Positions 7,419 to 33,489 of a stretch of DNA of 38,808 bases are shown here, one piece after another (the stretch's first letter is position 1; every line of letters begins with the position of its first letter). The stretch comes from Thermoanaerobaculia bacterium (GTDB taxonomy: Bacteria; Acidobacteriota; Thermoanaerobaculia; Multivoradales; JAIOJS01): the NCBI GenBank assembly GCA_030429235.1, contig JAUIDB010000034.1, forward strand, positions 1-38,808, given 5' to 3'. The notes under the pieces were generated by a model that saw only the letters and a list, made by a program, of their open reading frames with translations, did no database searches and had not been told where the DNA came from. Position numbers and translations under genes: made by a program.

Positions 7419-9905
7419 CTAGAAGCGGTAGCGAGCCTGTAGTGCGATCTGCCGGCCGGGTTCGGCGAACTTGTAGTTCGGGGTTGGGCCGATGTCACCG
7501 GCCTGGCCGACGCCAGTCGTAGAGTCGCCGAGGCTAGAGGTCAACCTGTCGGTCAGGTTCTTGCCGATCAGCAAGAATCGCCAGCTCTCTCCGGCGGTGG
7601 CCAGGCTGATCGAGGCATTGATCTTGCCGTAGGCTTCCTGGGTGTCCAGCGGATCGTTGGTCAACTTGAAGTGGACGTCGTCTACCCAGTAGTAGAGGAG
7701 GTCGTAACCCAGTTCCATGCCGCGGCCGACCCCGAAGCCACCGCCGTTCAGGCGCACGTTGAACTGCCATTCGGGAGCGTAGGCCAGCGGTGTTCCCGCT
7801 AGATCCTGGACCGAGGACACAGCACCGTTGGGGAACGTGACCGAGACGCAGCCTTCCGCCATCGTCTGTCCCGGGTAGCAAGGCCCGTTTGGGAACTCTT
7901 CGTACTCCGCCTCGGTCCAGGCCGCCGCCGCGGCGAGCGTCGTGTACTCGGTCAGGCCGACCACGACCTCAGCCTCGATGCCCGTGGAGTTCGCCTCGGC
8001 CGCGTTGTTGACATTCTGGATGACGGTGACTGCATCGAAGGCCGAGACCTGGATGTCCTCGAAGTCTGTCGACCACACCGCCCAGCTGGTGCGAGCCCGA
8101 CCCTCGATGAACGTGTGTTTGCCGCCGATCTCGAGGTGTGAGGTGCTCTCGGAGTCGTACTCGACGAGGTCCCGCGTCAGCGCCGCCTGCGACACGTAGT
8201 TCGGGAACTGGAAGCCGCCGCTCTTGAAGCCCTCCGCATAGGTGGCGTAGAACATCGACCCCGTTGACGGCGTCCAACGCAGGGTGACGTTGGGGCTGAA
8301 GTCTGACTCCGACCGATCGAAGAAGCCCGAACTCGTGAACTGCGCCGGACCGCAATTGAAGCCGATTGGAATCCCCACGCCGTCGAGCGAATCAGTGACG
8401 TTCGGACAGTCCACCTGGTTGCCAGCGACCTCGAGGGAGTAGGGCGTCAGCACCGTCGTATTCGAGTCTGTCGCGCGGTCCTCCTCGGTGAAACGTCCGC
8501 CAAGGGTGAGAGTGAAGTCATCGTGCAGATACCAGTCGACTTGGCCGAAGAGCGCTAGCGACTCGGTGTCGAGAGTGGACCATCCGTGCCGCTGCAAACC
8601 GCGGAACGCAGGGTTCGTCGTACCCCCCTCACAGAGCGAGAACGGGCCGCGACAGAACATGAAGGACTGGATGAAGTCGTTCGTCTGCTCGCCGTAGTAG
8701 AGGCCCGCGATGTAGTCGAACTTCGTGCCGCCGAGCGAGGTGATCCGCAGTTCGTGCGAGGTCTGCGACCAGTCGTCGCCGACGAAGATGTGCGTCCACT
8801 CGAGGTCGCTGTGATCCGAGTCCCAGGCATCGAAGCCCTCGTACTCTGCGTGGTTCCCCAGGTAGGTCATGTAGGTGCGATCGAAGTACTTGTTGAGGAT
8901 CAGTCCGAACATCGAGTATCGGGTGTCGTGGGGCTCCCGCTGTGCCTCGCCGTTGATCAGGAACTGTACGTCCTTGGATGAGTTGAATCGGCAATCCTCG
9001 GAGGGGTCCCGCGGATTGGGCGAGGTGGCGTCGCCGACGCAGTTGTAGATCTCTCGGGCGCGTCCACTGTGTTCGAGATCGCCGGCCTGAATCATCAGCT
9101 TAGCCTGCAGTGTGTCACTGACTTGCCAGTCGAAGGTGCCACGAGCCGTGTAGTCTCGGCGCTCCTGGTCGTTGCGGCCGGTTCCCAGGTTCTCCACCCA
9201 CCCTTCGCGGTCCTCGATGCGGACCGCGAACCGCGCCTTCAGAGCCTCCGAGAGGGGCACGTCGACGGCCGATTCGAGGGACAAGCCTTGCCCGTCCTCG
9301 AAGTCGTAGGTCGTCGTGAGGTAGCCGCCGAAGACGTCTCCGGGCTCGCGTGTGGTGATGTTGATCGCGCCGACGCTGTTGTTCTTTCCGATCAGGGCTC
9401 CCTGCGGTCCCTTGAGGATCTCGACCTGCTCGACATCGAGGAACATCGTGCGCCCGAAGCGGCTGCGGCCGAAGAAGAAGCCGTTCACCACTTGGCCGAC
9501 GGCCTCCTCGAAGCCCAGGTTGGAGCCCGTGGTCCCGAGACCGCGGACGATGAAGCGATCGAAGCTGTTGACGTCCTCGGCGTGAATGAAGTTCGTCGCC
9601 GAAAGGGAGAGCGCGGTGAGATCCGAGATATTGGCCTTCTGCAGGCTGTCGCCATCGATGTGCGTGATCGCGATCGGTACCTCGGTCAAGAGCTCCTCGC
9701 GTTTGCGGGCGGTAACGGTGATCTCGTCGCCGACGGCCGTCCTCTCGGGAGCCAGCTCCTCCCCCTCGGCGGTACTTGCCTCGACGTCAGCTCCCGCCGC
9801 ATCGTTCTGCGCGAGGACCAGGCTCGCCGAGCCTAGGCTCAGCGCAAGGAGCAGGACGGCGAACCTCGATGTTTGTGTGAGAAAGGCGGCTCCGTTCTTC
9901 GTCAT
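7419..9905 (-). CDS. TonB-dependent outer-membrane receptor
   Basis: 828 residues from the ATG at 9905; an in-frame TTG two codons earlier sits against the GGAGAG ribosome site and is less likely. A signal peptide (FAVLLLALSLGSASLVLAQ) is followed by a short acidic linker and a TonB-box-like DEITVTARKREE. The plug domain runs to about residue 180 with LSLSATNFIHAE, RGLGTTGSNLGFEE and VEILKGPQGALIGKNNSVGAINI. The rest is a 22-strand-type barrel closing with QIALQARYRF, a terminal Phe for the BAM complex. Family members import siderophores, cobalamin, glycans or other large ligands using TonB energy. No ABC transporter, SusD or regulator lies next to it, so the ligand cannot be inferred. Confidence 0.95.
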   Translation of the reverse strand: MTKNGAAFLTQTSRFAVLLLALSLGSASLVLAQNDAAGADVEASTAEGEELAPERTAVGDEITVTARKREELLTEVPIAITHIDGDSLQKANISDLTALSLSATNFIHAEDVNSFDRFIVRGLGTTGSNLGFEEAVGQVVNGFFFGRSRFGRTMFLDVEQVEILKGPQGALIGKNNSVGAINITTREPGDVFGGYLTTTYDFEDGQGLSLESAVDVPLSEALKARFAVRIEDREGWVENLGTGRNDQERRDYTARGTFDWQVSDTLQAKLMIQAGDLEHSGRAREIYNCVGDATSPNPRDPSEDCRFNSSKDVQFLINGEAQREPHDTRYSMFGLILNKYFDRTYMTYLGNHAEYEGFDAWDSDHSDLEWTHIFVGDDWSQTSHELRITSLGGTKFDYIAGLYYGEQTNDFIQSFMFCRGPFSLCEGGTTNPAFRGLQRHGWSTLDTESLALFGQVDWYLHDDFTLTLGGRFTEEDRATDSNTTVLTPYSLEVAGNQVDCPNVTDSLDGVGIPIGFNCGPAQFTSSGFFDRSESDFSPNVTLRWTPSTGSMFYATYAEGFKSGGFQFPNYVSQAALTRDLVEYDSESTSHLEIGGKHTFIEGRARTSWAVWSTDFEDIQVSAFDAVTVIQNVNNAAEANSTGIEAEVVVGLTEYTTLAAAAAWTEAEYEEFPNGPCYPGQTMAEGCVSVTFPNGAVSSVQDLAGTPLAYAPEWQFNVRLNGGGFGVGRGMELGYDLLYYWVDDVHFKLTNDPLDTQEAYGKINASISLATAGESWRFLLIGKNLTDRLTSSLGDSTTGVGQAGDIGPTPNYKFAEPGRQIALQARYRF

Positions 9906-10322
9906 ATGCAACTCTCCAGAGTCAGTCTTGTTGACCGTCGTTGACCCGCGTCGCGGCCGGCGGCCCGCGGCTCCACGGCTTCGGTTTCCCTTCGATACGT
10001 GTGGTGCGCCCTCGAGTTCTGCACTGCCCTACGCGCCGACTCCGCTGAGGTCTCCGACTGGGGTGACACGAGTCTCGGTCAGAGCAGCGATAGTACCGAG
10101 AGAAGGCAGGGACAGTATCCGAGGTAGTGGCCGACCAGGATCGGGATGGCTCTCCCCGGCGGGCGAGGGACTGAATCGATGCGGCCTGGACGTCGCTAGC
10201 GAAGTGGCCCCTCCCCGGAGCCGAGCGGCGGCCAGGGGCCTATTCTGTCTCACCGTCCAACCTCTCTGGACTGCTGGGAGGTGTCTGGCACTCCCTCGTA
10301 GTGCCAGCCGAATTCCGGAGCC
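9906..10322. other. no gene seen; upstream region of TonB receptor
   Basis: About 415 bases with no supported gene. It holds the receptor's ribosome site (GGAG 8 bases before the ATG, minus strand) and, at 10280-10292, one copy of the dispersed GGTGTCTGGCAC element. Open frames here have no coding character. Confidence 0.45.
10280..10292 (+). repeat. dispersed GGTGTCTGGCAC element, short copy
   Basis: Reads GGTGTCTGGCACT preceded by CTGGGA, almost the same context as the copy at 23552. It lies between the TonB receptor promoter region and the broken secreted-protein gene. Confidence 0.6.
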
Positions 10323-10621
10323 CTACTTGGGTCGCGATTGCTGATCCAGGAACTCCGCGCGGTCCCAGGCCTCCTGGTCCGAGAGCATGCTGCCGGCGCT
10401 GGTAGCCGACGCCCACAGACTCGGGGGCATCACGGCCCCGTCCGGGCTGCCGTCCCAGGTCCGGCAGTCCCCGAACTGTCGCGGGATCTGACGCCCCCAA
10501 AGCAGTCGGCTGCAGTCCCGTTCTCGGCCAGCGCCGCTCCCGCGCCCAGAGCCGTCGCGGCGGCCCATCCCGCGAGTATCGCCAGGGCTTAGCTGACGGA
10601 CCGAACGCTTACGTTCCTCAT
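10323..10621 (-). pseudogene. broken gene for a small secreted protein
   Basis: An AGGAGG site precedes an ATG at 10621 (minus). The frame gives MRNVSVRSVS, then an in-frame TAA, and continues in the same frame with ALAILAGWAAATALGAGAALAENGTAADC, a complete signal-peptide core with an Ala-x-Ala cleavage site. Just after ADC the reading must shift frame to continue as SRLLWGRQIPRQFGDCRTWDG... to the TAG at 10323. The gene therefore carries one nonsense codon and one frameshift, both inside an otherwise well-formed start region. The intact ancestor would be about 98 residues, with two Cys in the mature part (about 70 residues). I do not recognise the family. A sequencing error could explain one lesion but hardly both. 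Confidence 0.6.
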
Positions 10622-10799
10622 CGGTGGACCTCCTGCTGCACGGCGAAGCCGCGAGTCGAGAATCGGTGTCTGGCTATCTGCGCCATGCTACCGGGGTCGA
10701 GGGGCCAAGGTATCGAGAGAAGGTGCTCTGGATCTAGCGCCGAGAAGTACCAGTTGTGTCTTGCATCTTCAGTGGACGGGGCGAACGTATGATGTCCCG

Positions 10800-11810
10800 A
10801 TGAGAACGCTCCTCGCAGCCGTCGTCCTTCTGCTCCTGCCACCAGCCGTCGCCGCCGATCCACCGGCCAACGGCACCGTCCTCCACCGCGAGCCGGTTCA
10901 GTTGGGGGAGGATGCACCCGAGGGCGCGAAGGAGAGGCTGGTGGGGGTCGAACTCGAGCGGTTGGTCTACTCGAGTGATGGGCTCGAAGTGGAGGCCTAC
11001 CTCGCCACTCCGATAGGCGACGCGGACCTCGCGCGTCCCGGGGTCGTATTCCTGCGGGGCGGCAACCGTGACTTCGGAGCCGTCACCTCGGTGCGAGCGG
11101 CGTTCCTTCTAGGACGCCTCGCCCAGGAGGGCTACGTGGCGATCGCGACCAACTACCGTGGCAACGGGCGGCCAGGTGTCGCCAAGTATCCGGGGGAGAG
11201 AATCTGCTCCGAATGCGAGAGTGCTATCGGCGGTGTGGGACGTGAGGAGTTCGGTGGGGCCGAGGTCGACGACGTGCTCGCCCTCATTCCTCTCCTCGAG
11301 GCGATGCCCGGCGTCGACGCCGAGCGCCTGGGGATCTACGGCTGGAGCCGAGGCGGGATGATGACCTACCTGACCCTGCGGCGCACCGATCGTTTTCGCG
11401 CCGCTGTCGTCGGAGCCGGAGTCGCCGATGTGGCGGCCAGCCTGCAGCAGCGCCCAGACATGGCGGAGCACGTGTACTCCGAACTGGTACCCGGTTGGTC
11501 CGAGGCTGCGACCCGGGCGCGCGAGATCGAGAAGCGATCCGCCGTCCTGTGGGCCGAGGAACTTCCCGAGAGCACGCCGATTCTCCTCCTCCACGGTACC
11601 GCCGACTGGCGGGTGGATCCGACCCAGGCTCTCGACATGGCGCGAGCCCTGCTGCTGGCCCGGAGGCCCTTTCGGCTCCAGCTCTTCGAGGGAGGGGATC
11701 ACGGCCTCAGAGAGTACCGGACGGAGGTCCACGACGCCGTCGTCGCGTGGTTGAACCACTACGTGAGGGACGGAGGTGAGCACCCGAGTCTGGAACCCCA
11801 CGGACGCTAG
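10800..11810 (+). CDS. secreted S9-type (prolyl-oligopeptidase-like) serine hydrolase
   Basis: 336 residues from the ATG at 10800, which begins a classic signal peptide (MRTLLAAVVLLLLPPAVAADP); an in-frame TTG at 10761 would spoil it. The body is an alpha/beta-hydrolase of the dipeptidyl/acylaminoacyl peptidase type without an N-terminal propeller. The nucleophile elbow is GWSRGG (Ser183), the acid is in LLHGTADWRVDP (Asp269), and the base is in EGGDHGL (His301). NYRGNGRPG after strand beta4 is typical of S9 enzymes. The predicted role is hydrolysis of short peptides or esters in the periplasm. The substrate is unknown. It is alone on the plus strand, convergent with the GyrI-like gene. Confidence 0.88.
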   Translation: MRTLLAAVVLLLLPPAVAADPPANGTVLHREPVQLGEDAPEGAKERLVGVELERLVYSSDGLEVEAYLATPIGDADLARPGVVFLRGGNRDFGAVTSVRAAFLLGRLAQEGYVAIATNYRGNGRPGVAKYPGERICSECESAIGGVGREEFGGAEVDDVLALIPLLEAMPGVDAERLGIYGWSRGGMMTYLTLRRTDRFRAAVVGAGVADVAASLQQRPDMAEHVYSELVPGWSEAATRAREIEKRSAVLWAEELPESTPILLLHGTADWRVDPTQALDMARALLLARRPFRLQLFEGGDHGLREYRTEVHDAVVAWLNHYVRDGGEHPSLEPHGR

Positions 11811-11915
11811 GGATCCGTCGGCTCGTGACGACGAGGGCAGGCGAGGCGGGAAGGCGTTTCACCCTACGGACCCTCACCATGACCAGGGAACTGGAGCGCG
11901 CCCGAGAGGATACGG

Positions 11916-12533
11916 TCAGCGGCTCGATGCGGGGCCGACTGGAAGGCGGAGGATCGTGCGCAGGCGATCTGGAGGTACCCGGCGGGGATCGCTCAGGTAG
12001 ATCTCGTGGTGCCAGAGGGTCGGAGTCAGATTCGCCTCCGCCGCCAGAGCGAGCATTGCCTCGAGTGTGGTGCCCTCGGATTCGTAGGGACCCACGTGCA
12101 GCGCCTGGACGCACTGCCCTTCCTCGAGGAGGGCCAGCTCGACGGCCTCGAAGTCGCCCTCCTTGCCGCGCGCTCTGAGCTGCTCTCTCGCGGACTGCAG
12201 GGCCGGCTCGTCGATGAAGTCGGGGACCCGGATCAGCAGCCGCCAGTTCCACTCCTCCTTGGGTAGCGAAGCGAGGTCTGATTGGTCCTGCCCGTCCACC
12301 CCGTAGAGCCCTTCGAGCTTGCTCACGGCGTAGTCCCGTCCCCTGGCCTTGCTCGCGAACTTGAGGGTGTAGGCCATCGCGTAGAGAGCCGCCACTCGCG
12401 ACTGGAAGAGCTCCGATCCGGGAGCGCCTCGACCGGTGACGGCCAGATAGCGGGCCGGGGCGATCTGCAGCAGAGTCGGTTTCCTTCGCGTCGAGTACTC
12501 CGCCCGGTTCTCTTTGACGAGATCGATCTTCAT
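11916..12533 (-). CDS. GyrI-like domain protein
   Basis: 205 residues from the ATG at 12533. This start overlaps the TGA of the upstream AraC gene (ATGA), which decides the start and implies translational coupling; longer versions of the frame only read through the AraC gene out of frame. Family landmarks are MKIDLVKENRAEY, APARYLAVTGRGAPG, RVAALYAMAYTLKF, DYAVSKLEGLYG and PKEEWNWRLLIRVPDF. These are GyrI-like small-molecule-binding proteins (SHS2 duplication), cytosolic, thought to bind or hydrolyse small hydrophobic or cationic ligands. Pairing with an AraC protein that itself ends in a GyrI-like domain suggests both sense the same compound. Confidence 0.88.
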   Translation of the reverse strand: MKIDLVKENRAEYSTRRKPTLLQIAPARYLAVTGRGAPGSELFQSRVAALYAMAYTLKFASKARGRDYAVSKLEGLYGVDGQDQSDLASLPKEEWNWRLLIRVPDFIDEPALQSAREQLRARGKEGDFEAVELALLEEGQCVQALHVGPYESEGTTLEAMLALAAEANLTPTLWHHEIYLSDPRRVPPDRLRTILRLPVGPASSR

Positions 12534-14526: not shown

Positions 14527-16548
14527 ATGTCTAGTCCGCTCTCTCGCGCCCCGCAGCGGGTCCTCGCCCTCCTCGTACTGACGAGCGTTTCCCTCGCGGC
14601 GGAGGATCGCCTCGCCGACCAGATCCCGAGTGCGGCCACCGGGAATCCGGACATGGCCCAGTTGGCCGCTACCGAAGGTACGGGGACGATCGTTGCCGAC
14701 GGCAAGGGCTGCACGTTGGGCGATGCGATCACTTCGGCGAACACCGACATCGATACCGGCGGTTGCACCGGGGCCGGCGGCGTGGAGACCATTCAATTGG
14801 ACGGCGCCTTCATCAGCTCGGTCGCCGACGAGACCAGCTCGACACACTTCGACGGCGCCTTTGCCGCCCTTCCGGACGTCGAGAGCGAGATGACGATCAC
14901 CGCCGGCACCGCGACGCTCATCTCTCGGCTCGACAGTTTGACGTGCCCCGACGATGGTGTTGATCACTTCCGGCTCCTCAACGTGGTCGCTGGGGGGCGG
15001 CTCACCCTCGATGGCGTGACGTTGGAGAACGGCTGCGCTCCTTCCGGGGGCGCCGTCTATGTACAGGGCGAGCTCGTCCTGGTCGACAGCGTCTTCCGGG
15101 ACAACACCGCGCAGGGTGTGGATCTGACGGCAATTCAGCGGGGTGGGGTTCTCGATGGCCGCGGCGGGGCGGTGTACGTCGCGGACGTCGGCGAGCTCGA
15201 ATCGGTCACGGGCACGGTGTTCGAAGACAACCGAGCGGTCGGGTTGTCCGGCGACGGCTCGAATGGGGAGGGCGGGGCGCTGATGATCGAGAGTGGCGCC
15301 GCGGTCGGACCGATCCAGCTGTCGCTGTTCCGGTCGAACGAAGCCATCGGCGGCGGTGCCGCGTTCGACGGTGGCAGGGGCCGTGGCGGCGCGGTCTACT
15401 CCAGGGAAGATCTGACGGTGAACGACACACGCTTCGAGTCCAACCGCGCCCAGGGAGGATCGGGGAGCGTGGCCGCGGGCGGCGAGGCAGTAGGAGGAGC
15501 AGTCCATGTCAACGGCGCGGCGGCGACCTTCGAGCGGGTCGTTTTCGAAGGCGACCAGGCGAAGGGCGGTGTGACCGCAAGTCCGAACTTCGGGGGCCGC
15601 GGCTGGGGTGGTGCGATCTACGTCGAGGGGCTTCTCTCGATCAGCGATGCCCGCATCGCGGGGAGCTCGGCCGTGGGCGGCAACTCGTTGATCGGTACCG
15701 GGGGTACGGCCGCGGGCGGAGCGATCCTCTCCGGAGAGACGCTGATCGTCGCCGAGCGGGTGACGGTATCGGATTCCTGGGCTCAGGGCGGCAGTGGCGG
15801 AGGGGGTGGCAGTGGGGGAGCCGCAAGGGGTGGGGCGATCAACTCCCCGAGTGGTGGAACCGGGACCAACATCACACTGTCCGGCAACCTAGCGATCGGC
15901 GGCAACACCGCGGGGTCGTTGGGCGGCGGTGCGTCCGGAGGTGGCTGGTGGTCGGCCGGGACCCTGGACATCGTCAACGGGACGGTGATCGGTAACGTGG
16001 CCGCGGGGGGAACGGGAACGTCAGATGGGACTGCCGCCGGCGGCGGTGTCTTCCACGACTTGGGCATTGTCAGTTTCGTGAGTTCGATCCTCGGCAGCAA
16101 TGCGGTCGGCGTAGCCGGCGGCTCGTTCGCCGCCAACGACTGCGACACGGATTCGGGCACCTTCGTCAGCCATGGCTACAACCTGGTTGAGACTGCTTCC
16201 GGCCAGTGCCCGTTCGTCGGAACCAACGACCAGACCGGTCTAAGCCCCGGCGTGATTGGGCTCGTCGACCTCGGCTGCGCCACACCTTTGCCAGACGGCT
16301 CCTGCGTCCCGGTCCACGCGCTCCCGGTCGAGAGCCCGGCTGTCGATCAGGGGAGTTGTACGGTGGCTGGAGTCGCCGAAGACGCCCGTGAGACGGCGCG
16401 TCCGTTCGACGTCGACACTATCGCCAACGCCGACGACGGCTGCGACGCCGGCGCCCACGAGCTGTTCGACCAGGACGGCAACGGCGACGATGACTTCTTC
16501 CTCTTCACCGACGGCTTCGAGTCGGGGGATACGACGGGCTGGAGCTAG
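14527..16548 (+). CDS. secreted right-handed parallel beta-helix protein with DGFESGD tag
   Basis: 673 residues. The ATG at 14527 has a near-perfect AAGGAGGT 6 bases upstream. A signal peptide (RVLALLVLTSVSLAAED) is followed at about residue 60 by DGKGCTLGDAITSANTD, the CxLxxAIxxAN motif that opens many CSLREAI-type exported beta-helix proteins. Residues about 130-520 are Gly-rich short repeats of the form GGAVYV...L.L..S.F..N.A.GG, as in autotransporter- and polymorphic-membrane-protein-like beta-helices. Near the end come SPAVDQGSC and DDGCDAGAHEL, as in choice-of-anchor Q domains, then DQDGNGDDDFFLFTDGFESGDTTGWS, the C-terminal tag seen in three more proteins here. It probably sits on the cell surface. 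The 297 bases upstream hold only its leader and no other gene. Ligand unknown. Confidence 0.9.
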   Translation: MSSPLSRAPQRVLALLVLTSVSLAAEDRLADQIPSAATGNPDMAQLAATEGTGTIVADGKGCTLGDAITSANTDIDTGGCTGAGGVETIQLDGAFISSVADETSSTHFDGAFAALPDVESEMTITAGTATLISRLDSLTCPDDGVDHFRLLNVVAGGRLTLDGVTLENGCAPSGGAVYVQGELVLVDSVFRDNTAQGVDLTAIQRGGVLDGRGGAVYVADVGELESVTGTVFEDNRAVGLSGDGSNGEGGALMIESGAAVGPIQLSLFRSNEAIGGGAAFDGGRGRGGAVYSREDLTVNDTRFESNRAQGGSGSVAAGGEAVGGAVHVNGAAATFERVVFEGDQAKGGVTASPNFGGRGWGGAIYVEGLLSISDARIAGSSAVGGNSLIGTGGTAAGGAILSGETLIVAERVTVSDSWAQGGSGGGGGSGGAARGGAINSPSGGTGTNITLSGNLAIGGNTAGSLGGGASGGGWWSAGTLDIVNGTVIGNVAAGGTGTSDGTAAGGGVFHDLGIVSFVSSILGSNAVGVAGGSFAANDCDTDSGTFVSHGYNLVETASGQCPFVGTNDQTGLSPGVIGLVDLGCATPLPDGSCVPVHALPVESPAVDQGSCTVAGVAEDARETARPFDVDTIANADDGCDAGAHELFDQDGNGDDDFFLFTDGFESGDTTGWS

Positions 16549-17225: not shown

Positions 17226-19982
17226 CTAGTTCGGTAGCGTAACGTCGAAATCGATCGCCGCCACCTGTTCGGGGGCCTGGCCGATCTTGCGCAAGAAGGG
17301 TAGCCAGCGGGGATCCTCGTGGAGGTTTGCGAGGTAGGGATGGACCGGTGCTCTGATGAGATCAGAGTCACGGTCGTCGACCGCCGCCTCCAGCCACTCG
17401 AAGGCGCGATCGACATCGCCTCGGTAGGCGAGGACGAACGCGATCTGGAATTTGAACTTGTCGTACTTCTCGATCAGCTCTGCCAGCGCCTCGTCGGATT
17501 CGGCGGTGCGCCCGGCCGCGTGGTAAGCCGGAATGCGATTGATCAGTCGAGCGGCTTCCGAGGGCACGAACTCCACCTCGTCGAGTGCCGCCGCTACCTC
17601 ACCCTGGATCAAGAGTACTTCGGAGAGGGCTGAGTGAATCCCTCGCCAGTCCGGTCTGGTTTCCAACACGGCACGCCAGGTATCGATCGCCTCGTCATAG
17701 CGCCCGCTGTGGTATAGGACCGAAGCCAGCGTGGCCCGATGGCCGTCGTTCATCGGATCGCGAGCGACCAGAAACTCGTGGATCTCGACCATGAGGTCCA
17801 TGCGATGGAGAGTCGCAGCCAACAGGCTCGCATTGATGAGGACTTCCGTGTCATGTGGTGCGAAGGCGAGAGCCTTCGAGATATGCCGGGCACCGGTCCG
17901 GAGATCCCGGTCGAAGCTCAGCGCGATGTATCCGAGCTCGCCGTGGGCCATGGCGTTGTTCGGGTCGATCGCCAAAGCCCGATTGGCGGCCTCGCGAGCC
18001 AGACTGAAACCCTCGGTGTGGGAGCTGAAAAAACCGTCGTCGCGCTGGTAGTTGTAGACATTGGCGAGCCAGGCCCAGGTGAACGCGGCATCAGGGTCGA
18101 TGGCGACGGCTTGGCGAAGCAGGTCGACAGCTCGCCGATAGTCCTCGGCAGTCGGGAGCTGGACATGATGACGGGCCTCGAGAACGAGCGCGTAGGCCGC
18201 GGGATCCACCACCTCGGTCGTCGGCGGTTGGCCGACGAGCTCGACCTCGAGCTGGGATACGACCTCTCCGGCGATCTCGTCCTGAATGGCGAAGATGTCA
18301 TCCATCGTCCGGTCGTAGGTTTCGGTCCACCGAGGGCTGTCGGAAGCCACCTCGATCAACTGGGCGGTGATCCGCACCTGGTCGCCGTCGCGGCGCACGC
18401 TGCCCTCGAGCACATGGGCGACGCCGAGGCGGCGAGCGATCTCGGGGATCTGGAGATTCTGACCCTTGAAGGAGAAGGCCGAGGTCCGGGAGGTCACGCG
18501 CAGTTCGGGTATCCGGGTGAGCAGAATGAGCAGTTCCTCGGTGAGGCCGTCGGAGAAGTAGTCCTGGCTGGGGTCCCCGCTCCGGTTCGCGAAGGGAAGT
18601 ACGACGATCGAGCGGGGATCTGGGTCGAGTACCGATGCGGTCGAAGCCTCAGGCTCTGGTGTCTCGGTGGCCGTCACGGAGTGGCGCTGAAGGAGGAGAA
18701 GCCAGAAGCCCAAGAGCACGATGGCCGCCGCCGCGGCCGACCACAGCCATCGAGACACCCGAGAACCGCGTTGGCGTCGGGCGAGGGTTCTGTCCTTGGA
18801 AACCGCGAGGCGAGGCGGCGTCGCCTCGCCATCGAGGAGTGCGGCGAGTGCCGCAGCGACCTCGGCCGCGTCGGAGCATCGCTCCTCGGCGGATTTGATC
18901 AGCAACGACGCGATCAGGTCCGACAGCCCGGACGGAACGTCGAGACCCTCGGGCAGCGGCTCCGGATCGTCGTTGAGGATCGAGTGGATGACGGCCTGTG
19001 CGTTGCCGCCTCGGAACGGGCAATGGCCGACGAGACTCTCGTAGAGCAAGACACCAAGTGCCCAGAGATCGCTCTCGGGCCCCACGTCCTCGCTCTTCGC
19101 GAGTTCCGGTGACATGTAGGAAGGGGTTCCCAAAGACGAGCCGGCGACCGTCAGTCGCGTCGTGCCGCGGAGCCTGGCCAGGCCGAAGTCGAGGATCCTG
19201 ACGCCACCGGCTCTTTCGTCGCCCCGGCTCGACGAGATGGCGGGCGTCAGCATGATGTTGCTCGGTTTGAGATCCCGGTGGACGATCCCGGCGGCGTGGG
19301 CGGCGTCGAGCCCAGCCGCGATCTCGGCCGCGATCCGCACCGCTTCCGGCCACGGCAGGGGACCCTCGTCGAGCCTCTCCTCGAGGGTCTCCCCCTGATA
19401 CAGGGGCATGACCAGATACATCCTGCCGTCGTGGGTCTCGTCGACGTCGTAGACCACGCAGATGTTGGGGTGGTCGAGGCGAGCGTCGGCGCGAGCTTCG
19501 CGCAGAAAGCGAGCCTTGGAGTCTCGGTCCCGGCACAGCTCGGGCGCCAGGAACTTCAGCGCGACCGTACGCTCGAGCCGGCGATCCCGAGCCCGCCACA
19601 CCACCCCCATCGCGCCGCTGCCGATCTGCTCCTCGAGTTTGTATCGATCTGGGCTGCCGGGATCGGCCTCGAGCCAGGAGACGGGTGCGATCAGGCGGTA
19701 GCCGCGGCGCGGAATGGTCTCGATCACGGTCGGTTCGCGAGCATTGTCGTCGAAGGCCTTGCGGAGCTCCCAGATCGCATGCGAGAGCACTTCCTCGGCA
19801 ACGACCGTCTCTGCCCACGCGCTGTCGAGCAGCGCCTCTCGGGTCCTCACCGTGCCGGCGTGCTCGGCGAGGTCGATGAGCACCGCGACCGACTTGGGTT
19901 CGAGCTTGCGCGGTCCGTCTGGACCCTCGATCGTCCGAAGATCCGGACACACCCTCCAGTCGCCAACCCGAAAGTCCCTCAT
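17226..19982 (-). CDS. winged-helix / Ser-Thr kinase / TolB-like / TPR signalling protein
   Basis: 918 residues. Residues 1-102: OmpR/CadC-type winged helix (LEPKSVAVLIDLAEHAG, VLSHAIWELRKAFDD, IETIPRRGYRLIAP). Residues 113-385: Hanks-type kinase with GSGAMG (121-126), Lys143, HRDLKPSN (Asp237), DFG (265-267) and TPSYMSPE, all catalytic residues present. Residues about 412-432: one transmembrane helix. Residues about 455-585: a TolB/FlgO-like domain (SIVVLPFANRSGDPSQDYFSDGL, VLEGSVRRDGDQVRITAQL). The rest is TPR repeats (YALVLEARH..., NRALAIDPNNAMAHGELGYIA). The kinase and DNA-binding domain should face the cytoplasm, with the TolB/TPR part outside. Kinase-TolB-TPR and CadC-TolB-TPR proteins are both known; carrying winged helix and kinase together is less usual. 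No partner gene is adjacent. Confidence 0.93.
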   Translation of the reverse strand: MRDFRVGDWRVCPDLRTIEGPDGPRKLEPKSVAVLIDLAEHAGTVRTREALLDSAWAETVVAEEVLSHAIWELRKAFDDNAREPTVIETIPRRGYRLIAPVSWLEADPGSPDRYKLEEQIGSGAMGVVWRARDRRLERTVALKFLAPELCRDRDSKARFLREARADARLDHPNICVVYDVDETHDGRMYLVMPLYQGETLEERLDEGPLPWPEAVRIAAEIAAGLDAAHAAGIVHRDLKPSNIMLTPAISSSRGDERAGGVRILDFGLARLRGTTRLTVAGSSLGTPSYMSPELAKSEDVGPESDLWALGVLLYESLVGHCPFRGGNAQAVIHSILNDDPEPLPEGLDVPSGLSDLIASLLIKSAEERCSDAAEVAAALAALLDGEATPPRLAVSKDRTLARRQRGSRVSRWLWSAAAAAIVLLGFWLLLLQRHSVTATETPEPEASTASVLDPDPRSIVVLPFANRSGDPSQDYFSDGLTEELLILLTRIPELRVTSRTSAFSFKGQNLQIPEIARRLGVAHVLEGSVRRDGDQVRITAQLIEVASDSPRWTETYDRTMDDIFAIQDEIAGEVVSQLEVELVGQPPTTEVVDPAAYALVLEARHHVQLPTAEDYRRAVDLLRQAVAIDPDAAFTWAWLANVYNYQRDDGFFSSHTEGFSLAREAANRALAIDPNNAMAHGELGYIALSFDRDLRTGARHISKALAFAPHDTEVLINASLLAATLHRMDLMVEIHEFLVARDPMNDGHRATLASVLYHSGRYDEAIDTWRAVLETRPDWRGIHSALSEVLLIQGEVAAALDEVEFVPSEAARLINRIPAYHAAGRTAESDEALAELIEKYDKFKFQIAFVLAYRGDVDRAFEWLEAAVDDRDSDLIRAPVHPYLANLHEDPRWLPFLRKIGQAPEQVAAIDFDVTLPN

Positions 19983-20114: not shown

Positions 20115-20282
20115 CCCTGTCCCACAGATCTCCCCAAGAACTCCCCGAGGGTTTCCTCAGGACTCTCCGGCAGCTCGCTGCGACGATCGCCGCATCAAAA
20201 CGCAACCGCAGGAGATCACGATGACGCTCACCACCTGTAGCCCACCTTCGGGAACAAGGCTCCAGCCGATGAAAGGGAGACC
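20115..20282 (+). repeat. duplicated leader, copy 1
   Basis: This stretch aligns base for base, with few gaps, to 21987-22153. Both copies contain CCCTGT, then AGATCTCCCC exactly 11 bases on, CGATCGCCGCATC, the ribosome site CGCAGGAGATCACG and an ATGAC start, and continue about 60 bases into the coding region (AGGCTYCAGCC, GAGACC). Copy 1 belongs to the collapsed gene in front of the S8 protease. Confidence 0.75.
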
Positions 20283-20455
20283 ACGGGGGACTCTCAGTGG
20301 GGGGACTCCCTGTGACGGAGGTGCCCACTCTCGATTCATTGGGTCTCGCGGTGTCCAGAGCTCTCAGAGAGTCTCTCGTTCTCCTCACAGGTCAGCCGGG
20401 GCCCTCCCGGAGAACGATGGGCATCAGGAACAACCAGCAAGGAGAACCCACATGA
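20221..20455 (+). pseudogene. collapsed paralogue of the VPTL-tagged repeat protein
   Basis: The stretch starts like the intact gene at 22091: same ribosome site, ATG, then MTLTTCSPPSGTRLQPMKG against MTPDHMQPTFRTRLQPMER. In the next frame (from about 20291) it ends like that gene: LSVGGLPVTEVPTLDSLGLAV against FSVAGLSVIEVPTLSSVSLAV. The roughly 400 residues of repeats between are gone, and the membrane helix after VPTL is garbled (SRALRESLVLL). The remnant is thus both termini of a paralogue joined by a large deletion with a frameshift. Its final TGA overlaps the ATG of the S8 protease. It also supplies the protease's likely promoter and leader. Confidence 0.68.
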
Positions 20456-21921
20456 CTCGTGTTGTCCCTTCCTTCGCTCAACGCATAGCAACCTCCCTTG
20501 CCTTTCTGACTCTTGCGGTCAGCCTTCCGACTCTCGGCGAGGACCGGAGCTCTTCCCGTTCCGCGGTGCTGCCAGAGAGTCCCAGCTCGGATCAGGACGC
20601 TTTCATGATTCTCCTTCGGGAGAAGGCCGATCTGAGTCCAGCCTTCGAGATCCGCGATTGGGACGCACGCGGACGCTTCGTCACCCAGCGCCTCAGAGAG
20701 GTGGCCGATAGATCTCAAGCGGGCCTGCGCGAGATGCTCTCGGCGTCGGGAGCCGACTTCCAGCCCTTCTGGATCGTCAATTCGATCCTCGTCATCGATG
20801 GCGATCCGGCTTTTCTGTCTCAACTGGCGGCGCGGCCCGAGGTGGCCGAGGTTCGCGCTGCGGTGAGCGCCGAGAATCCGGAGCTGGTACCTGGGGAGCG
20901 CCGATCCGCCAACGGGACCATCGAGTGGAACATCGATCACATCGGAGCGCCGGTGCTTTGGTCGATCGGCACCACGGGCGAAGGAATCGTCGTGGCCAAC
21001 CTCGACTCCGGTGTTCACTACATGCATCCTGCCCTGGTGAGCCAGTATCGCGGCAACCTCGGCGACGGCACCTTTGACCACAACTACAACTGGTTCGACG
21101 CCACTGGAGCCAACTGTCCGAGCGAACCGTGTGACGACCCCGCCAGCCCCCACGGCACGTTCACCATGGGTTTCATGGTCGGCGACGACGGGGGTGCGAA
21201 CCAGATTGGCGTAGCACCAGGAGCCCGATGGATCGCCGCGGCCGGGTTTGGTGTCCCAGGCGGCGAGCTGGCGGCCGCACAATGGCTCCTCGCTCCGACC
21301 GACCTGGATGGACAGAACGCGAACCCAGATCTGCGCCCGCATGTGATCAATAACTCCTGGGGCTATCCTCCAGCGAGTTTTCGAGATGCCGTAGTGGCTT
21401 GGGTCGCCGCCGGTATTTTTCCCGCGTTCGCCCCCTCGAACGATGGCCCATCGTGCATGACGACCGTAGATCCCGCGAACTATCCGGAGAGCTATGCCGT
21501 TGGCGCCCACGACATCAACAACAGTCTGGCGGGCTTCTCGGCCAGGGGCCCCTCGCCCTCCGGCATCATCAAACCGGACATCGTCGCGCCGGGTGTCGAC
21601 ATCCGATCCAGCGTGATGGTCGAATTCGAACCCTCCGGCTATACCGTCTGCAATTGTACGTCTGGCTCAGCGCCGCACGTCGCCGGGGCTGTCGCGCTCC
21701 TCTGGTCGGGCAGGCCTGGCCTGATCGGAGACGTTACAGCAACTCGAGCAGCCTTGGACGGCAGCGCCATCGACGTGACGGACCTGAGCTGTGGAGGGAC
21801 TCCTGGGGACAACAACGCCTGGGGAGAAGGACGCCTGGATCTCCTGGCCGCCTTCGGGTTCGTCTTCGCGGACGGCTTCGAGTCCGGCGACATTACGGCA
21901 TGGTCCAGCGGGGCCCCGTAG
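20452..21921 (+). CDS. secreted subtilisin-like (S8) serine protease with DGFESGD tag
   Basis: 489 residues from the ATG at 20452, chosen for the AAGGAG site upstream and the signal peptide that follows (IATSLAFLTLAVSLPTLGE). Residues about 48-140 look like an I9-type propeptide. The catalytic domain has Asp185 (VVANLDSGVHY), His234 (SPHGTFTMG), the oxyanion Asn in HVINNSWG (Asn300/301) and Ser404 in NCTSGSAPHVAG. The serine motif is unusual: subtilases read GTSMAxPHVAG, but here Gly is replaced by Cys and Met-Ala by Gly-Ser. Cys400 and Cys402 flank the site. The protein ends in VFADGFESGDITAWSSGAP. Export and peptidase activity are likely; whether the altered motif affects activity is unknown. 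Confidence 0.92.
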   Translation: MTRVVPSFAQRIATSLAFLTLAVSLPTLGEDRSSSRSAVLPESPSSDQDAFMILLREKADLSPAFEIRDWDARGRFVTQRLREVADRSQAGLREMLSASGADFQPFWIVNSILVIDGDPAFLSQLAARPEVAEVRAAVSAENPELVPGERRSANGTIEWNIDHIGAPVLWSIGTTGEGIVVANLDSGVHYMHPALVSQYRGNLGDGTFDHNYNWFDATGANCPSEPCDDPASPHGTFTMGFMVGDDGGANQIGVAPGARWIAAAGFGVPGGELAAAQWLLAPTDLDGQNANPDLRPHVINNSWGYPPASFRDAVVAWVAAGIFPAFAPSNDGPSCMTTVDPANYPESYAVGAHDINNSLAGFSARGPSPSGIIKPDIVAPGVDIRSSVMVEFEPSGYTVCNCTSGSAPHVAGAVALLWSGRPGLIGDVTATRAALDGSAIDVTDLSCGGTPGDNNAWGEGRLDLLAAFGFVFADGFESGDITAWSSGAP

Positions 21922-21986
21922 GGAAGTCGCCTGTCGACCAGAGAAGGCCGACCAGCAGCCTCTCTCGGTTGGGCCGCCTCCGTTGC

Positions 21987-22153
21987 CCCTGTGCCGAAGA
22001 TCTCCCCAAAACTCCCCTACGGTCCGTCAGGACTTGCCCGCAGCCCCTTGCAACGATCGCCGCATCCAATCGAAACCGCAGGAGATCACGATGACACCTG
22101 ACCACATGCAGCCCACTTTCAGAACGAGGCTTCAGCCCATGGAACGTGGAGAC
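21987..22153 (+). repeat. duplicated leader, copy 2
   Basis: Second copy of the leader described at 20115-20282, in the same orientation. It gives the intact VPTL-tagged gene its upstream region, ribosome site and first 20 codons. The two copies bracket the S8 protease gene. Confidence 0.75.
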
Positions 22154-23533
22154 CGGGTGAGCGCGATGGTCAAGCCGGGTCCACGAACGCCTTTACGAAT
22201 CATGGTGGCCGCGCTGGGGGCTTGTTTCATCGGGACTCTCCCGGCCCTCGTTATTGCCCAGCCTGTCGTACCCATCGGCGGAGAGTTCCAGCTCAACACC
22301 TACACGACCGGCGCGCAGGCGAACGCCTCAGTCAGCTTCTCAGAAGACGGCGGTTTCGTCGCCGTCTGGGAGAGCGAGGGCTCGAGCGGTTCGGACGATT
22401 CGGGTTCGAGCATCCAAGGAAGGCTCTTTGGCCCGGATGGCAGCCCGATCTCAGCTGATTTTCAAGTCAACACCGTGACGGCGGGCAGTCAGACTTCGCC
22501 AGCGGTTGCTATGAACTCGAAGGGGGAGTTCTTCGTGGCATGGGCATACCCGAGGGACGACTTTTCTACGATCCAGGGCCAGGGCTTCGATTCGAACGGC
22601 AACCCGATAGGAAATGAACTGCAAATAGACTCTGGCGCGCCATACTACTGGGCGAACGAACCTTCCGTGGCGTCGGGTCCCGACGGTGGATTCGTCGTGG
22701 TGTGGAGGTCGTACGAGAGCGACTTGGATTCAAACTTTGTTCGTGCCCAACTCATAGACGCTGACTTTCAGCCGGTCGGCGACGGGTTCTCTGTCAGTTC
22801 TGGTGTGCATCCGGCGGTTGCTGTCGGAGGCTCGGGCGACTTTCTCGTCGTCTGGCGGGTAGCATCATGTGACTGTTGGCCACCGCCCCTCGGTCTCCGC
22901 GGCCAAAGCTATGCCTCCGATGGTTCGCCCCTGGGAGAGGAGTTCTTTATCTCTCCTCATGGGCGTCTTCCCGCAGTCGATTTCGGCTCGGACGATCGGT
23001 TCGTCGTCGTGTGGGAAAGCTGGGACTCCATCGGCACGGATGTCGACGGCAGCAGTGTTCAGGGCGCGCTCTTCTCGTCGACAGGTGAACCCATTGGGAG
23101 TGCGTTTCAGGTCAACAGCCTCACGACCGGCAACCAGGGATCGCCTTCGGTCGCCGTGGATCACGACAATGGGTTCGTCGTCGCTTGGCAGGGTGACAGC
23201 AGCTACGGTACCGACACGGACTCAACCAGCGTTCAGGGGCGCCGCTTCGGCCCGGGCGGTGATCCCGAGGGCCCGGAGTTTCAGGTCAATACGTCCACCG
23301 GCGGCCCCCAAGTCGCACCAGTGATCGCGAGTCAGGGAGCCGGTCGTCTACTCGTTGTCTGGTCGAGTGAAGATTCGGCTGGCGACGACAACTCCTCGAC
23401 GAGCATTCAAGGTCAGAGATTTTCAGTGGCTGGGCTCTCTGTGATCGAGGTGCCCACCCTCTCCTCCGTTAGCCTCGCAGTGCTCATGCTGGCGCTTCTA
23501 GTTTCCGGTGTGCGAAGGCTGCGTCTCGGCTGA
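22091..23533 (+). CDS. secreted repeat protein with VPTL (IPTL-CTERM-like) C-terminus
   Basis: 480 residues from the ATG at 22091, which has AGGAG at a good distance and a counterpart in the duplicated leader. A later in-frame ATG (about 22167, MVKPGPRTPLRIMV...) would give a shorter lead to the hydrophobic segment LRIMVAALGACFIGTLPALVIAQP. Residues about 65-445 consist of about six repeats of 50-60 residues built on FQVNTxTxGxQxxPxVAxxxxGGFVVxW and SSxQGxxFxxxGxPxG, probably a beta-propeller. The tail (VIEVPTLSSVSLAVLMLALLVSGVRRLRLG) has the VPTL-hydrophobic-Arg shape of IPTL-CTERM sorting signals, so the protein is exported and then processed or anchored. The binding partner is unknown. Confidence 0.85.
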   Translation: MTPDHMQPTFRTRLQPMERGDRVSAMVKPGPRTPLRIMVAALGACFIGTLPALVIAQPVVPIGGEFQLNTYTTGAQANASVSFSEDGGFVAVWESEGSSGSDDSGSSIQGRLFGPDGSPISADFQVNTVTAGSQTSPAVAMNSKGEFFVAWAYPRDDFSTIQGQGFDSNGNPIGNELQIDSGAPYYWANEPSVASGPDGGFVVVWRSYESDLDSNFVRAQLIDADFQPVGDGFSVSSGVHPAVAVGGSGDFLVVWRVASCDCWPPPLGLRGQSYASDGSPLGEEFFISPHGRLPAVDFGSDDRFVVVWESWDSIGTDVDGSSVQGALFSSTGEPIGSAFQVNSLTTGNQGSPSVAVDHDNGFVVAWQGDSSYGTDTDSTSVQGRRFGPGGDPEGPEFQVNTSTGGPQVAPVIASQGAGRLLVVWSSEDSAGDDNSSTSIQGQRFSVAGLSVIEVPTLSSVSLAVLMLALLVSGVRRLRLG

Positions 23534-23579: not shown

Positions 23580-23990
23580 CTACTCCCCAGCGGCGAACGG
23601 ATCGTAGCTGCCCACGCTCCACAGGACGCCCTCGAGGTCCCGAAGGGTGAAGCCGCGCCCGCCGTAGTCCTGGTGGACGTTGGGGAGCACGACCTCGGCC
23701 CCGGCGGCCAGGGCGCGTTCGTAGACGGTATCGGGATCGGTCACGACGAGGTACGCGCTGGCGGTGTTCAGGCCACCGACGGCCGCGGGCGGCTTCTGGA
23801 GCTGGTCGAAGGGTCCGTTGGCGGCCGAGCCGAGCATGATCATCGCGTCGCCGCGTGTCAGCTGGGCGTGAGCGATGGTGCCGTTGGGTCCCTCGTACAC
23901 GGCGTGCGTCTCGAAGCCTAGAGTGGAGCACAGCCAGTCGATGGCGGCGGGGGCGTTGTCGTATCGGTAGGTCGGGATGATCTGGCCCAT
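23580..23990 (-). CDS. VOC-family (glyoxalase/bleomycin-resistance-like) protein
   Basis: 136 residues from the ATG at 23990, with GAGGAGG 5 bases upstream. It has the paired beta-alpha-beta-beta-beta units of vicinal-oxygen-chelate proteins: IIPTYRYDNAPAAIDWLCSTLGFET, then AHAQLTRGDAMIMLGSA, and in the second half SAYLVVTDPDTVYERALAAGAEVV and GGRGFTLRDLEGVLWSVG. It is closest to the PhnB-like branch; members are cytosolic and may bind or modify small molecules. It lies 27 bases downstream of an AraC-family gene on the same strand, so the two probably form an operon in which the regulator senses the compound this protein acts on. A relic of a close paralogue lies at 16976-17051. Confidence 0.9.
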   Translation of the reverse strand: MGQIIPTYRYDNAPAAIDWLCSTLGFETHAVYEGPNGTIAHAQLTRGDAMIMLGSAANGPFDQLQKPPAAVGGLNTASAYLVVTDPDTVYERALAAGAEVVLPNVHQDYGGRGFTLRDLEGVLWSVGSYDPFAAGE

Positions 23991-24017: not shown

Positions 24018-24908
24018 CTACGCCGGCGCGAAGGCCGCGTCTTGAACAGAATGGACATCGGTACCAAAGCTGGGCCGCGACGCCGCTTCGAACGCGGTGG
24101 GAGTCAGCCCCGTGTGCCGCTTCACCTCCCGAGAGAGGTGAGCCTGGTCGCTGAATCCACACTGGTACGCCAGGTTCCCCCAGGAGGTGCGGCGCCCGCC
24201 GTCGATCGCTTGGGCGAGCCGCTGGAACCGGGCGAGCCGCGCGATCTCCTTCGGCGGCAGGCCGACTTGGTCCCGGAACAGACGCACCACGTGCTTGTGG
24301 CTGTAGCCCAGCTCGCGGACCAGCCGGCCGATGTCGACGGCTCCGCCCGTCGCCACGATGCGGTCGAGTCCCCAGCCCACGATCCGGGTGCGATCCGTCG
24401 GGTCCTGCAACGCGTCGAGCAGCGCCCGGTCGAGCCGAGCGAATCGGGAGGGCCAGTCGCCGAGCTCGGCCAGGCGCCACGGTAGGTCTCGGTGGGCCCG
24501 GGGGAGGAGGTCGACGACGGGCACGCAGCGCTCGGCCAGCTCGTTCAGAGGCACGCCGAAGAGCAGGCGCGCACCGAGCGGGGTCAGGGACAGCTGCATT
24601 CCGGCCTGGCGCCCGTCGCACAGGCAGTCCGCCCAGCGGCTGTAGACCCCGGCCACGAACCCCCCGCGGTAGCGCCCGCCCCGCTCGGTACCGGAGTCAG
24701 TCACCCGGATCGGTGGTGTGAACTCGATGACGGCGACCACTCCCACGCTGGGGAACTCGCGCCGAAGGAACGGCGTGGGCCGAGTCTCGACGTACCCGGA
24801 GTAGCTGGAGACCCACGATTTCAGCGGCAGCGGCGGCTCGCGTGTCGCCAGCTCCCACCGCCCGCCGTGGGCGGAACCGCCGACCACCGTAGTCGGTCTG
24901 TCGTTCAT
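24018..24908 (-). CDS. AraC-family transcriptional regulator
   Basis: 296 residues. The N-terminal 170 residues form an uncharacterised sensor domain of the kind found in many AraC proteins (PLKSWVSSYSGYVETRP, QAGMQLSLTPLGARLLFGVP, LAERCVPVVDLLP). The C-terminal third is the AraC double helix-turn-helix: VDIGRLVRELGYSHKHVVRLFRDQVGLPPKEIARL and NLAYQCGFSDQAHLSREVKRHTGLTPTAF. It is likely to activate itself and the VOC gene 27 bases downstream. The ATG at 24908 stands immediately after GGAGG with no spacer, and a 6-bp inverted repeat lies just before it, so either initiation is weak or regulated, or the true start is slightly different. Confidence 0.9.
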   Translation of the reverse strand: MNDRPTTVVGGSAHGGRWELATREPPLPLKSWVSSYSGYVETRPTPFLRREFPSVGVVAVIEFTPPIRVTDSGTERGGRYRGGFVAGVYSRWADCLCDGRQAGMQLSLTPLGARLLFGVPLNELAERCVPVVDLLPRAHRDLPWRLAELGDWPSRFARLDRALLDALQDPTDRTRIVGWGLDRIVATGGAVDIGRLVRELGYSHKHVVRLFRDQVGLPPKEIARLARFQRLAQAIDGGRRTSWGNLAYQCGFSDQAHLSREVKRHTGLTPTAFEAASRPSFGTDVHSVQDAAFAPA

Positions 24909-24974: not shown

Positions 24975-25853
24975 CTAGACGGTTGAGGTCCCTCGGCGCC
25001 CGCGCAGGGCCAGCAGGACCCCCACGGCCATGGTCAAGGACAGCACCAACAAGCCGAGCGCCCCCAAGGTGGGGACCTCCGTAGCGAGGGGCCCCGTCGG
25101 AGCAGTCAGAGCCAGGCCCAGGTAGCGTTCCGGGACCGTACCGAACGTCGGTCCCTGGGCGGTCGCAACGCCGGTCCCGGGGTCGACTTCAAAGATCTGA
25201 TAGCTGTAGGCCGGCGGCGTCACCGGCGGAGCGTTGACGTAGAGCAGGCGCAGATCACCGTCCGGAGCCGCGTCCATCAGCAGCGGACTGCCCAGCGAAC
25301 TACCCGATGGCAGGTCGAACAGTGGGGTCGATGAACCAGTGCCTCGGTCGAGTTCCACCAGCTGCGCGGGGACTGGTCCCCCGGCATGGTGGGTCGCGAG
25401 GAGACGGTTGGACAGGGCGACGATAGCCCACGCCGACGTCGAACCGGTGACCTGGGTAGCCTGACCAGAGGACGCATCGAGGGAGAAGAGCCCGGAGTCG
25501 GAGGTGAGCCAAAGGGACCCGTCGGCGGCGAAGGCCAGGTCACGGGGCCCGATCATCGGGACACCGAGGACCCCGATCATGGTCGGCGTCGCATCGGTCG
25601 GATCGAGGCGATAGAGAGCCGGGCTCGCCGTGTGCGAGATGACGAAGAGATCCCCGACCGGGTCCAGTGCGACCGGTCCCGCCTGGAGACCTACGTCCCC
25701 GATGAAGGTCGCGAAGCCAGGGGTCCCGATGGCGTCCAGGTCGATGGCGTACAGCGAGCTACCCAGAGTCGTGAAGCCGGTCTGAGCCGAAGCAGGGCTC
25801 CAGAGAGCCAGGCCGAGAAGGACTAGCTTGAGTGACCTATTCAAGAACACCAT
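24975..25853 (-). CDS. secreted protein with VPTL (IPTL-CTERM-like) C-terminus
   Basis: 292 residues from the ATG at 25853, which starts a good signal peptide (MVFLNRSLKLVLLGLALWSPASAQ); a GTG 14 codons earlier would bury it. The mature part resembles a six-bladed propeller with LYxID/LYRLDP, DLFVISH, SLWLTSDSGLFSLD and IFEVDPGTG motifs, as in NHL- or SMP-30-like domains. The tail reads TEVPTLGALGLLVLSLTMAVGVLLALRGRRG, again VPTL + membrane helix + Arg cluster. Two different exported proteins in this window thus carry the same kind of sorting signal. Function unknown. Confidence 0.8.
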   Translation of the reverse strand: MVFLNRSLKLVLLGLALWSPASAQTGFTTLGSSLYAIDLDAIGTPGFATFIGDVGLQAGPVALDPVGDLFVISHTASPALYRLDPTDATPTMIGVLGVPMIGPRDLAFAADGSLWLTSDSGLFSLDASSGQATQVTGSTSAWAIVALSNRLLATHHAGGPVPAQLVELDRGTGSSTPLFDLPSGSSLGSPLLMDAAPDGDLRLLYVNAPPVTPPAYSYQIFEVDPGTGVATAQGPTFGTVPERYLGLALTAPTGPLATEVPTLGALGLLVLSLTMAVGVLLALRGRRGTSTV

Positions 25854-25929
25854 GGTTCCGAGACATCCTAACCTGGATCGTTGAGCGACTCGCACGAGAC
25901 AAGAAGCCTCTCTAAGCCGCTCCCTACTC

Positions 25930-32668: not shown

Positions 32669-33489
32669 TACCCACACCCGCAACAACGACGGGTTGGTGG
32701 AACGTCGTGCTTGGCTTGCTGGCGGGTGTCGTGGGCCTCGCCAGCACCTCCACTGCTTTCGCGGAGGGGTTCGAGATGACGGTGCTGTCGGCCGACGTCA
32801 GCGCACTCATCGCTGGCGGCGTTGCGGAGGATGAGCACCTCGTCATTGACGATGGCAGCGGAGTTCTCAACATCTTCCTGTTCGGATTCCCGGATGCAAG
32901 GGATGTCGATGGCTACCACCAGTCCGCCGTAGGCGGCCATTGGTTCACCTTCGACAGTACGACGTCGGCCTTCGGGCAGGTAGTGGAACCCGGGGACGTC
33001 ATCTCGGCAACCGCGGGATTGCGTTTCGACGCTTCAGCACTGGGTCTTGCCAGAGGAGTCGACGTCGACGCTGTCAGTGAGTTCGCTGGGGACATGTTGC
33101 TCTCGTTCAGTACAGCGGTCGAACTGACGCCCGGCCAGGTTGCCGACGATGAAGATGTGGTTCGCTATGGGGCGGGCACACTGCACCTGCAACTCGACCT
33201 GTCGGCGATTGGTGTTCCTCCGAACCTGGACCTGGACGCGCTGCATCTGGATGAAGAGCGCGGCGTCTACTACCTGTCGTTCGACGGCCCGGGGCAGATC
33301 GCTTCCCTTCGTTTCGAAGGTTCAGACCTGCTCGCCTACGAACCGGGAGCGGGGTGGCGCATGGCTCGTCGAGGACGCGATGCGACGCTCCCGCTTCCGC
33401 GGGGTGCCGACCTCGACGGGGTCTTCGCCATCCCCGGTCTCTTCTCGGATGGCTTCGAAACGGGCGATCTCTCGCGATGGGCGCCCTAG
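32659..33489 (+). CDS. secreted protein with DGFETGD C-terminal tag
   Basis: 276 residues. A hydrophobic stretch (about residues 15-35, VVLGLLAGVVGLASTSTAFAE) is the signal peptide. The mature part has no domain I can name; it contains repeated beta-type segments around DVSALIAGGVAEDEHLVIDDGS, GVDVDAVSEFAGDMLLSFSTAV, LDLDALHLDEERGVYYLSFDGPG. Each has an acidic 'D-x-D-A-x-x-x-D/E' followed by (M/Y)xLSF, so there may be three repeats of one small domain. The end reads GLFSDGFETGDLSRWAP, a variant of the tag in three other proteins here. The ATG has no good ribosome site. Confidence 0.75.
   Translation: MSLIPTPATTTGWWNVVLGLLAGVVGLASTSTAFAEGFEMTVLSADVSALIAGGVAEDEHLVIDDGSGVLNIFLFGFPDARDVDGYHQSAVGGHWFTFDSTTSAFGQVVEPGDVISATAGLRFDASALGLARGVDVDAVSEFAGDMLLSFSTAVELTPGQVADDEDVVRYGAGTLHLQLDLSAIGVPPNLDLDALHLDEERGVYYLSFDGPGQIASLRFEGSDLLAYEPGAGWRMARRGRDATLPLPRGADLDGVFAIPGLFSDGFETGDLSRWAP

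Follow-up and report, generated by a model that had tools for sequence, protein, structure and literature searches.

A subtilisin-like protease gene between an intact and a collapsed paralogue of a secreted beta-propeller gene

Described systems and the setting of the locus

The protease encoded at this locus resembles peptidase family S8 (PF00082) in possessing a near-full domain and an intact Asp-His-Ser triad, and N-terminal to the domain its sequence can be aligned with the Tk-subtilisin and subtilisin E precursors. It differs from the S8 subtilases in having CTSGS in place of GTSMA. The neighboring gene encodes a protein with repeats of approximately 58 residues and a propeller-like model, as in the secreted beta-propeller repeat proteins with QVNTYTTG...GGFVVVWQS repeats. 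Its C-terminal tail recalls the IPTL-CTERM/exosortase H system, with which it shares a VPTL motif, a hydrophobic helix and a basic end, and exosortase H (XrtH) is encoded in the same genome (TIGR04177, 113.5 bits, above the cut-off of 86). However, the tail has VPTLSSVS where the motif is usually IPTL, and it scores slightly below the cut-off of TIGR04174 (19.6 bits in the genome search and 15.3 bits with hmmscan, against 20.5). Judged by sequence, the tail resembles IPTL-CTERM, yet the protein is not counted as a member. The arrangement of the genes is that of a tandem duplication with pseudogenisation by internal deletion, in that there are adjacent copies on the same strand, of which one is intact and the other retains no more than its ends and carries a frameshift and a premature stop. 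This locus departs from that pattern in having, between its two copies, an unrelated gene whose start falls on the final bases of the remnant.

The window, by which we mean the whole 38,808-nucleotide stretch of DNA analyzed, corresponds to contig C8 of a genome that comprises 92 contigs and 4.85 Mb. On one side of the locus is a gene for a 918-aa wHTH-kinase-TPR regulator (17226-19982), and downstream are a VOC-type gene (23580-23990) and an AraC-type gene (24018-24908), all three on the minus strand and named by sequence appearance. The closest relative in the comparison set shares only the genus, with approximately 62-65% protein identity at the regulator. The kinase-regulator orthologue is present in the sister species, but the genes adjoining it are unrelated to those of the window: SEL1-repeat-like and RHS-like genes (again by sequence appearance) lie upstream of it, and neither the protease nor the propeller gene is found next to it.

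For the locus as a whole, we consider it probable that a tandem duplication that included the leader was followed by collapse of the upstream copy, that a protease of a foreign lineage came to lie between the copies, and that this protease is transcribed from the leader of the dead copy. None of the sampled relatives is close enough to show how the locus was arranged prior to the collapse or the insertion. The rearrangement itself would be an unusual layout brought about by an ordinary kind of genome evolution, and the locus offers a readable example of how, by coming to lie behind a duplicate in decay, a gene from an outside lineage may acquire local control.

The duplicated leader and the collapsed paralogue

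The segments at 20115-20282 and 21987-22154 on the plus strand are 80% identical over 168 bases (E 2.5e-33 in a search of the whole 4.85 Mb genome), and there is no third copy anywhere in the genome. Local alignment of the two gives a score of 94, against a maximum of 16 in 300 shuffles. The first-pass annotation had proposed that a leader is present twice here and had named dissimilar leaders as the outcome that would speak against it; alignment bears out the duplication. Each leader carries an identical and well-placed Shine-Dalgarno sequence AGGAG, which lies at 20210-20214 before ATG 20221 in the leader of the collapsed paralogue (copy 1) and at 22080-22084 before ATG 22091 in that of the intact propeller gene (copy 2, annotated as 21987-22153). 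A consensus scan found no sigma-70-like promoter in either leader. Near the 5' end of each leader, GATCTCC can pair with GGAGATC of the Shine-Dalgarno region, and this possible long-range stem (20127-20133 with 20211-20217 in leader 1, and 21999-22005 with 22081-22087 in leader 2) is present in the predicted minimum free energy folds of both. A 7-bp stem common to both leader rows was seen in 1 of 300 column shuffles; the folding energies are no more stable than those of shuffles (z -1.2 and 0.3). Because the stem was noticed after the fact and without covariation, we treat it as a lead only, namely as a candidate that could possibly act as a translation switch.

The intact paralogue (22091-23533, plus strand) encodes a predicted secreted beta-propeller protein of 480 aa when read from ATG 22091, an assignment made from predicted structure and Foldseek. 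The single-sequence AlphaFold2 model is of moderate confidence (mean pLDDT 69, pTM 0.71), and its best Foldseek matches are sialidase-type and other beta-propellers (E 2.1e-8). No Pfam model reaches its cut-off with this protein. Sequences related to the propeller protein are present in 35 of 59 related genomes, with up to 55 matches per genome. Its IPTL-CTERM-like exosortase-H sorting signal, EVPTLSSVSLAVLMLALLVSGVRRLRLG, occupies 23450-23524. The signal peptide begins at about 22166, and codon scores are non-coding-like over 22091-22165 (-0.28) and coding-like over 22166-22390 (0.27), while the better Shine-Dalgarno sequence is at ATG 22091. The true start of the gene may be near 22166 or at 22091; in the former case, the two copies would share the leader and the tail and no protein N-terminus.

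Directly after leader 1, a 65-base block at 20289-20353 on the plus strand, encoding LSVGGLPVTEVPTLDSLGLAV, aligns without gaps and with 72% DNA identity to 23418-23482, where the downstream gene encodes its C-terminus. Among the 17 IPTL-CTERM-like ends of the genome, that of the adjacent gene is by far the closest to the remnant by DNA, with a score of 29 compared with 19 for the next; the background is given by 136 other pairs of ends (mean 15.1, sd 5.3). Two pairs of ends score higher than the remnant and its neighbor, at 42 and 32, and the former is itself a tandem pair, on contig C14. The remnant block also includes a linker (LSVGGLPV, compared with FSVAGLSV in the intact gene) that is absent from other sorting ends. 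In copy 1, the leader and the end block keep the order and the strand that they have in the intact gene, but approximately 1.26 kb is missing between them, including the signal peptide that begins at about 22166 in the intact gene and all of the repeats; no repeat region is left in copy 1. N-terminal coding homology between the copies extends over at most about 20 codons.

What remains of copy 1 does not form one reading frame. Relative to the intact gene, 2 bases are missing near 20271, so that ATG 20221 and the VPTL motif are not in frame with each other. In the VPTL frame, TGA 20270-20272 upstream and TGA 20453-20455 downstream leave only 20273-20452 open; from ATG 20221, by contrast, no stop is met and the frame continues into the protease (a 566-aa ORF, 20221-21921). 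In keeping with this, the 235 bases of 20221-20455 are not divisible by three. In bits per codon, the ATG 20221 frame scores -0.43, which is non-coding-like (the coding mean is 0.35, sd 0.12), and the VPTL frame has an intermediate score of -0.08, which fits decayed coding sequence. Copy 1 thus carries as disabling lesions the deletion of approximately 1.26 kb, the 2-base shift and TGA 20270-20272 in the VPTL frame.

The duplicated leader together with the adjoining C-terminal block indicates that copy 1 is a tandem duplicate that lost the 1.26 kb, and its sequence shows that, with this loss and the frameshift, it is a pseudogene. By our reading, the ancestor was a gene for a secreted beta-propeller whose tail was an exosortase-H-like sorting signal; this gene would have been duplicated in tandem with its leader, after which the upstream copy lost the sequence between its start region and its sorting tail. 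That one of two tandem paralogues collapsed to its two ends is well supported by the leader match, the end block and the nearest-of-17 comparison, in agreement with what the first-pass annotation had proposed. Its statement that the remnant lacks the repeats of the intact gene also stands. The further statement that the remnant retains both the N-terminus and the VPTL C-terminus is borne out in part: the VPTL end is present, but it is out of frame with ATG 20221, the N-terminal coding homology is short and the signal peptide is lost. No relative with the leader was found among the 71 other genomes of the order, and the sister species has other genes at the regulator.

The tandem pair on contig C14 (G000, ~9000-12000; loci L155 and L161) consists of IPTL-CTERM genes that are both intact and are alike in the body (69% over 417 bases) and in the end (76% over 82 bases); one member has an added stretch that we take to be DUF11-like. 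This pair indicates that tandem duplication of such genes occurs in this genome. By its sequence, the present locus is a tandem pair of the same IPTL-CTERM-like class with one member collapsed.

An improbable alternative holds that a mobile or regulon-wide regulatory element, seen here as the leader, came to stand before both genes independently, and that the VPTL-like block matches a motif common in this genome by chance. Its attraction is that IPTL-CTERM-like ends are indeed common in this genome, as the 17 matches attest, and that both leaders have the possible stem with the Shine-Dalgarno sequence. Against it, a genome-wide or order-wide element was rejected because there are only two copies in this genome and no convincing copy among the 71 others, in which we observed two weak matches only. 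One of these, a 46-base match in another genome (L185), was dismissed as chance; it sits in an acyl-CoA-synthetase-like ORF. A chance origin of the VPTL block is likewise opposed by the shared linker and by the score of 29 against 19.

The protease between the copies

The gene at 20452-21921 on the plus strand encodes a predicted secreted S8 (subtilisin-like) protease of 489 aa, identified from PF00082, triad motifs, alignment and a tree. PF00082 matches with E 1.6e-33 and 116.7 bits (cut-off 21.8) over profile positions 1-283 of 288. The catalytic triad is intact as Asp185, His234 and Ser404, according to motif positions and alignment with solved subtilases. The product is likely a secreted, tag-bearing and active subtilase.

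The closest relatives of the protease, with up to 54% identity, come from Chloroflexota, Actinomycetota and Myxococcota, whereas within its own order the best matches, among them another subtilase of this genome, reach 42-49%. In a 45-row tree, the window protease is set apart from all 20 sequences of the order, which were the order's best matches, by a branch with support of 100/98, and on the basis of these sequences it groups with actinobacterial and chloroflexotal subtilases and not with the order's own. The outside rows of this tree had been picked because they are close to the window protease, and the tree is rooted at its midpoint; an ancient paralogue with losses elsewhere could therefore also account for this topology. 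Most of the outside relatives extend well past the domain and have no C-terminal tag, in contrast to the window protease, which is short and tagged. The final residues of the window protease, FADGFESGDITAWSSGAP, agree with the ends of the order's subtilases but differ from those of the outside sequences. Since it ends in the tag typical of the order, the protease has probably adapted to local export after its arrival. The claim that the protease was inserted between the paralogues gains indirect support from its differing lineage and from the sister species, where neither it nor the propeller gene is found at the regulator orthologue.

The order's own C-terminal tag on the protease could also be explained if the protease were an old resident of an ancestral two-gene unit with the propeller, around which the propeller unit was copied. 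We assign little probability to this explanation, because the order's own subtilases form a separate clade and no propeller gene occurs in the stretches examined around protease relatives in five places of the order.

A Shine-Dalgarno sequence AGGAG of the protease gene, at 20440-20444 on the plus strand, lies 7 nt 5' of ATG 20452, and the signal peptide begins at this ATG. The ATG overlaps TGA 20453-20455, and the ATGA overlap that had been described is therefore real; the stop, however, belongs to the VPTL frame and not to that of ATG 20221, as the description had implied. Translational coupling through ATGA was rejected for this reason, as the leader ATG opens a frame other than that of the overlapping stop, and it is also unlikely because the protease has its own ribosome-binding site. 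These features lead us to regard the ATGA overlap as incidental and translation of the protease as independent. As for transcription, no other gene lies between leader 1 and the protease, so that transcription from the leader of the dead copy fits the layout, and it is plausible that the protease uses the promoter of the dead paralogue. It would probably be transcribed from that leader and translated from its own Shine-Dalgarno sequence. The least probable reading takes the ATG 20221 region as a real N-terminal extension, giving one 566-aa protease from the strong Shine-Dalgarno sequence of the leader; although the frame is open over 20221-21921 and the AGGAG is well placed and identical in both leaders, the extension has the codon score of a non-coding frame, 76 open codons in a row would arise by chance with a probability of 36% at this composition, and with 77 further residues in front of it, the signal peptide that starts behind its own AGGAG would be buried.

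A more speculative and rather doubtful extension is that the foreign protease was domesticated at both ends, at the front by the control region of a collapsed duplicate with an RNA stem able to cover the Shine-Dalgarno sequence, and at the back by an undescribed, order-specific tag that is found on about 90 proteins and would mark a shared export or surface route.

The C-terminal tag of the protease

The tag at the end of the protease, FGFVFADGFESGDITAWSSGAP, occupies 21853-21921 on the plus strand with the stop codon included. It is one of 91 matches in this genome, obtained by searching with an alignment of 14 such C-terminal ends. The consensus is [IL]F.DGFE[ST]GDT[ST]AW, and it is found on about 90 different proteins of this genome. 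Within the window, tag sites are located at 394-447 (minus strand) and at 16495-16545, 21853-21918 and 33433-33483 (plus strand). A pattern search of the same genome placed 83 of 93 tag ends at most 5 residues from the stop, and in 40 the tryptophan is the very last residue.

Other genomes of the order have up to at least 149 tag matches per genome, and the tag was found in 16 of the 18 sampled genera of the order, though not in the sampled species of genus g3. Of 149 genomes sampled across the phylum, two from the order have the tag frequently and two others have a single match each. By these searches, the tag is nearly confined to one order. No Pfam or NCBIfam family matches it, and a literature search found no mention of it. 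The tag is without the hydrophobic helix of exosortase-type tails, which makes a route other than the exosortase likely. Its near confinement to one order, its presence on about 90 proteins of this genome and the lack of a model in Pfam or NCBIfam suggest that these bacteria have an export or anchoring route not yet described. It is the most noteworthy by-product of this analysis.

The tag is also found on relatives of the propeller protein. In L017 and L174, from other genomes of the order, and at C26:49783-50772 of this genome (G000), such relatives have the DGFESGD...W tag where the window copy has the VPTL tail; by sequence, the same propeller domain occurs with either of two C-terminal signals. 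A second IPTL-CTERM-like end in the window, beginning TEVPTLGALGLLVLSL, belongs to a gene at 24975-25895 on the minus strand and scores 18.6 bits with TIGR04174.
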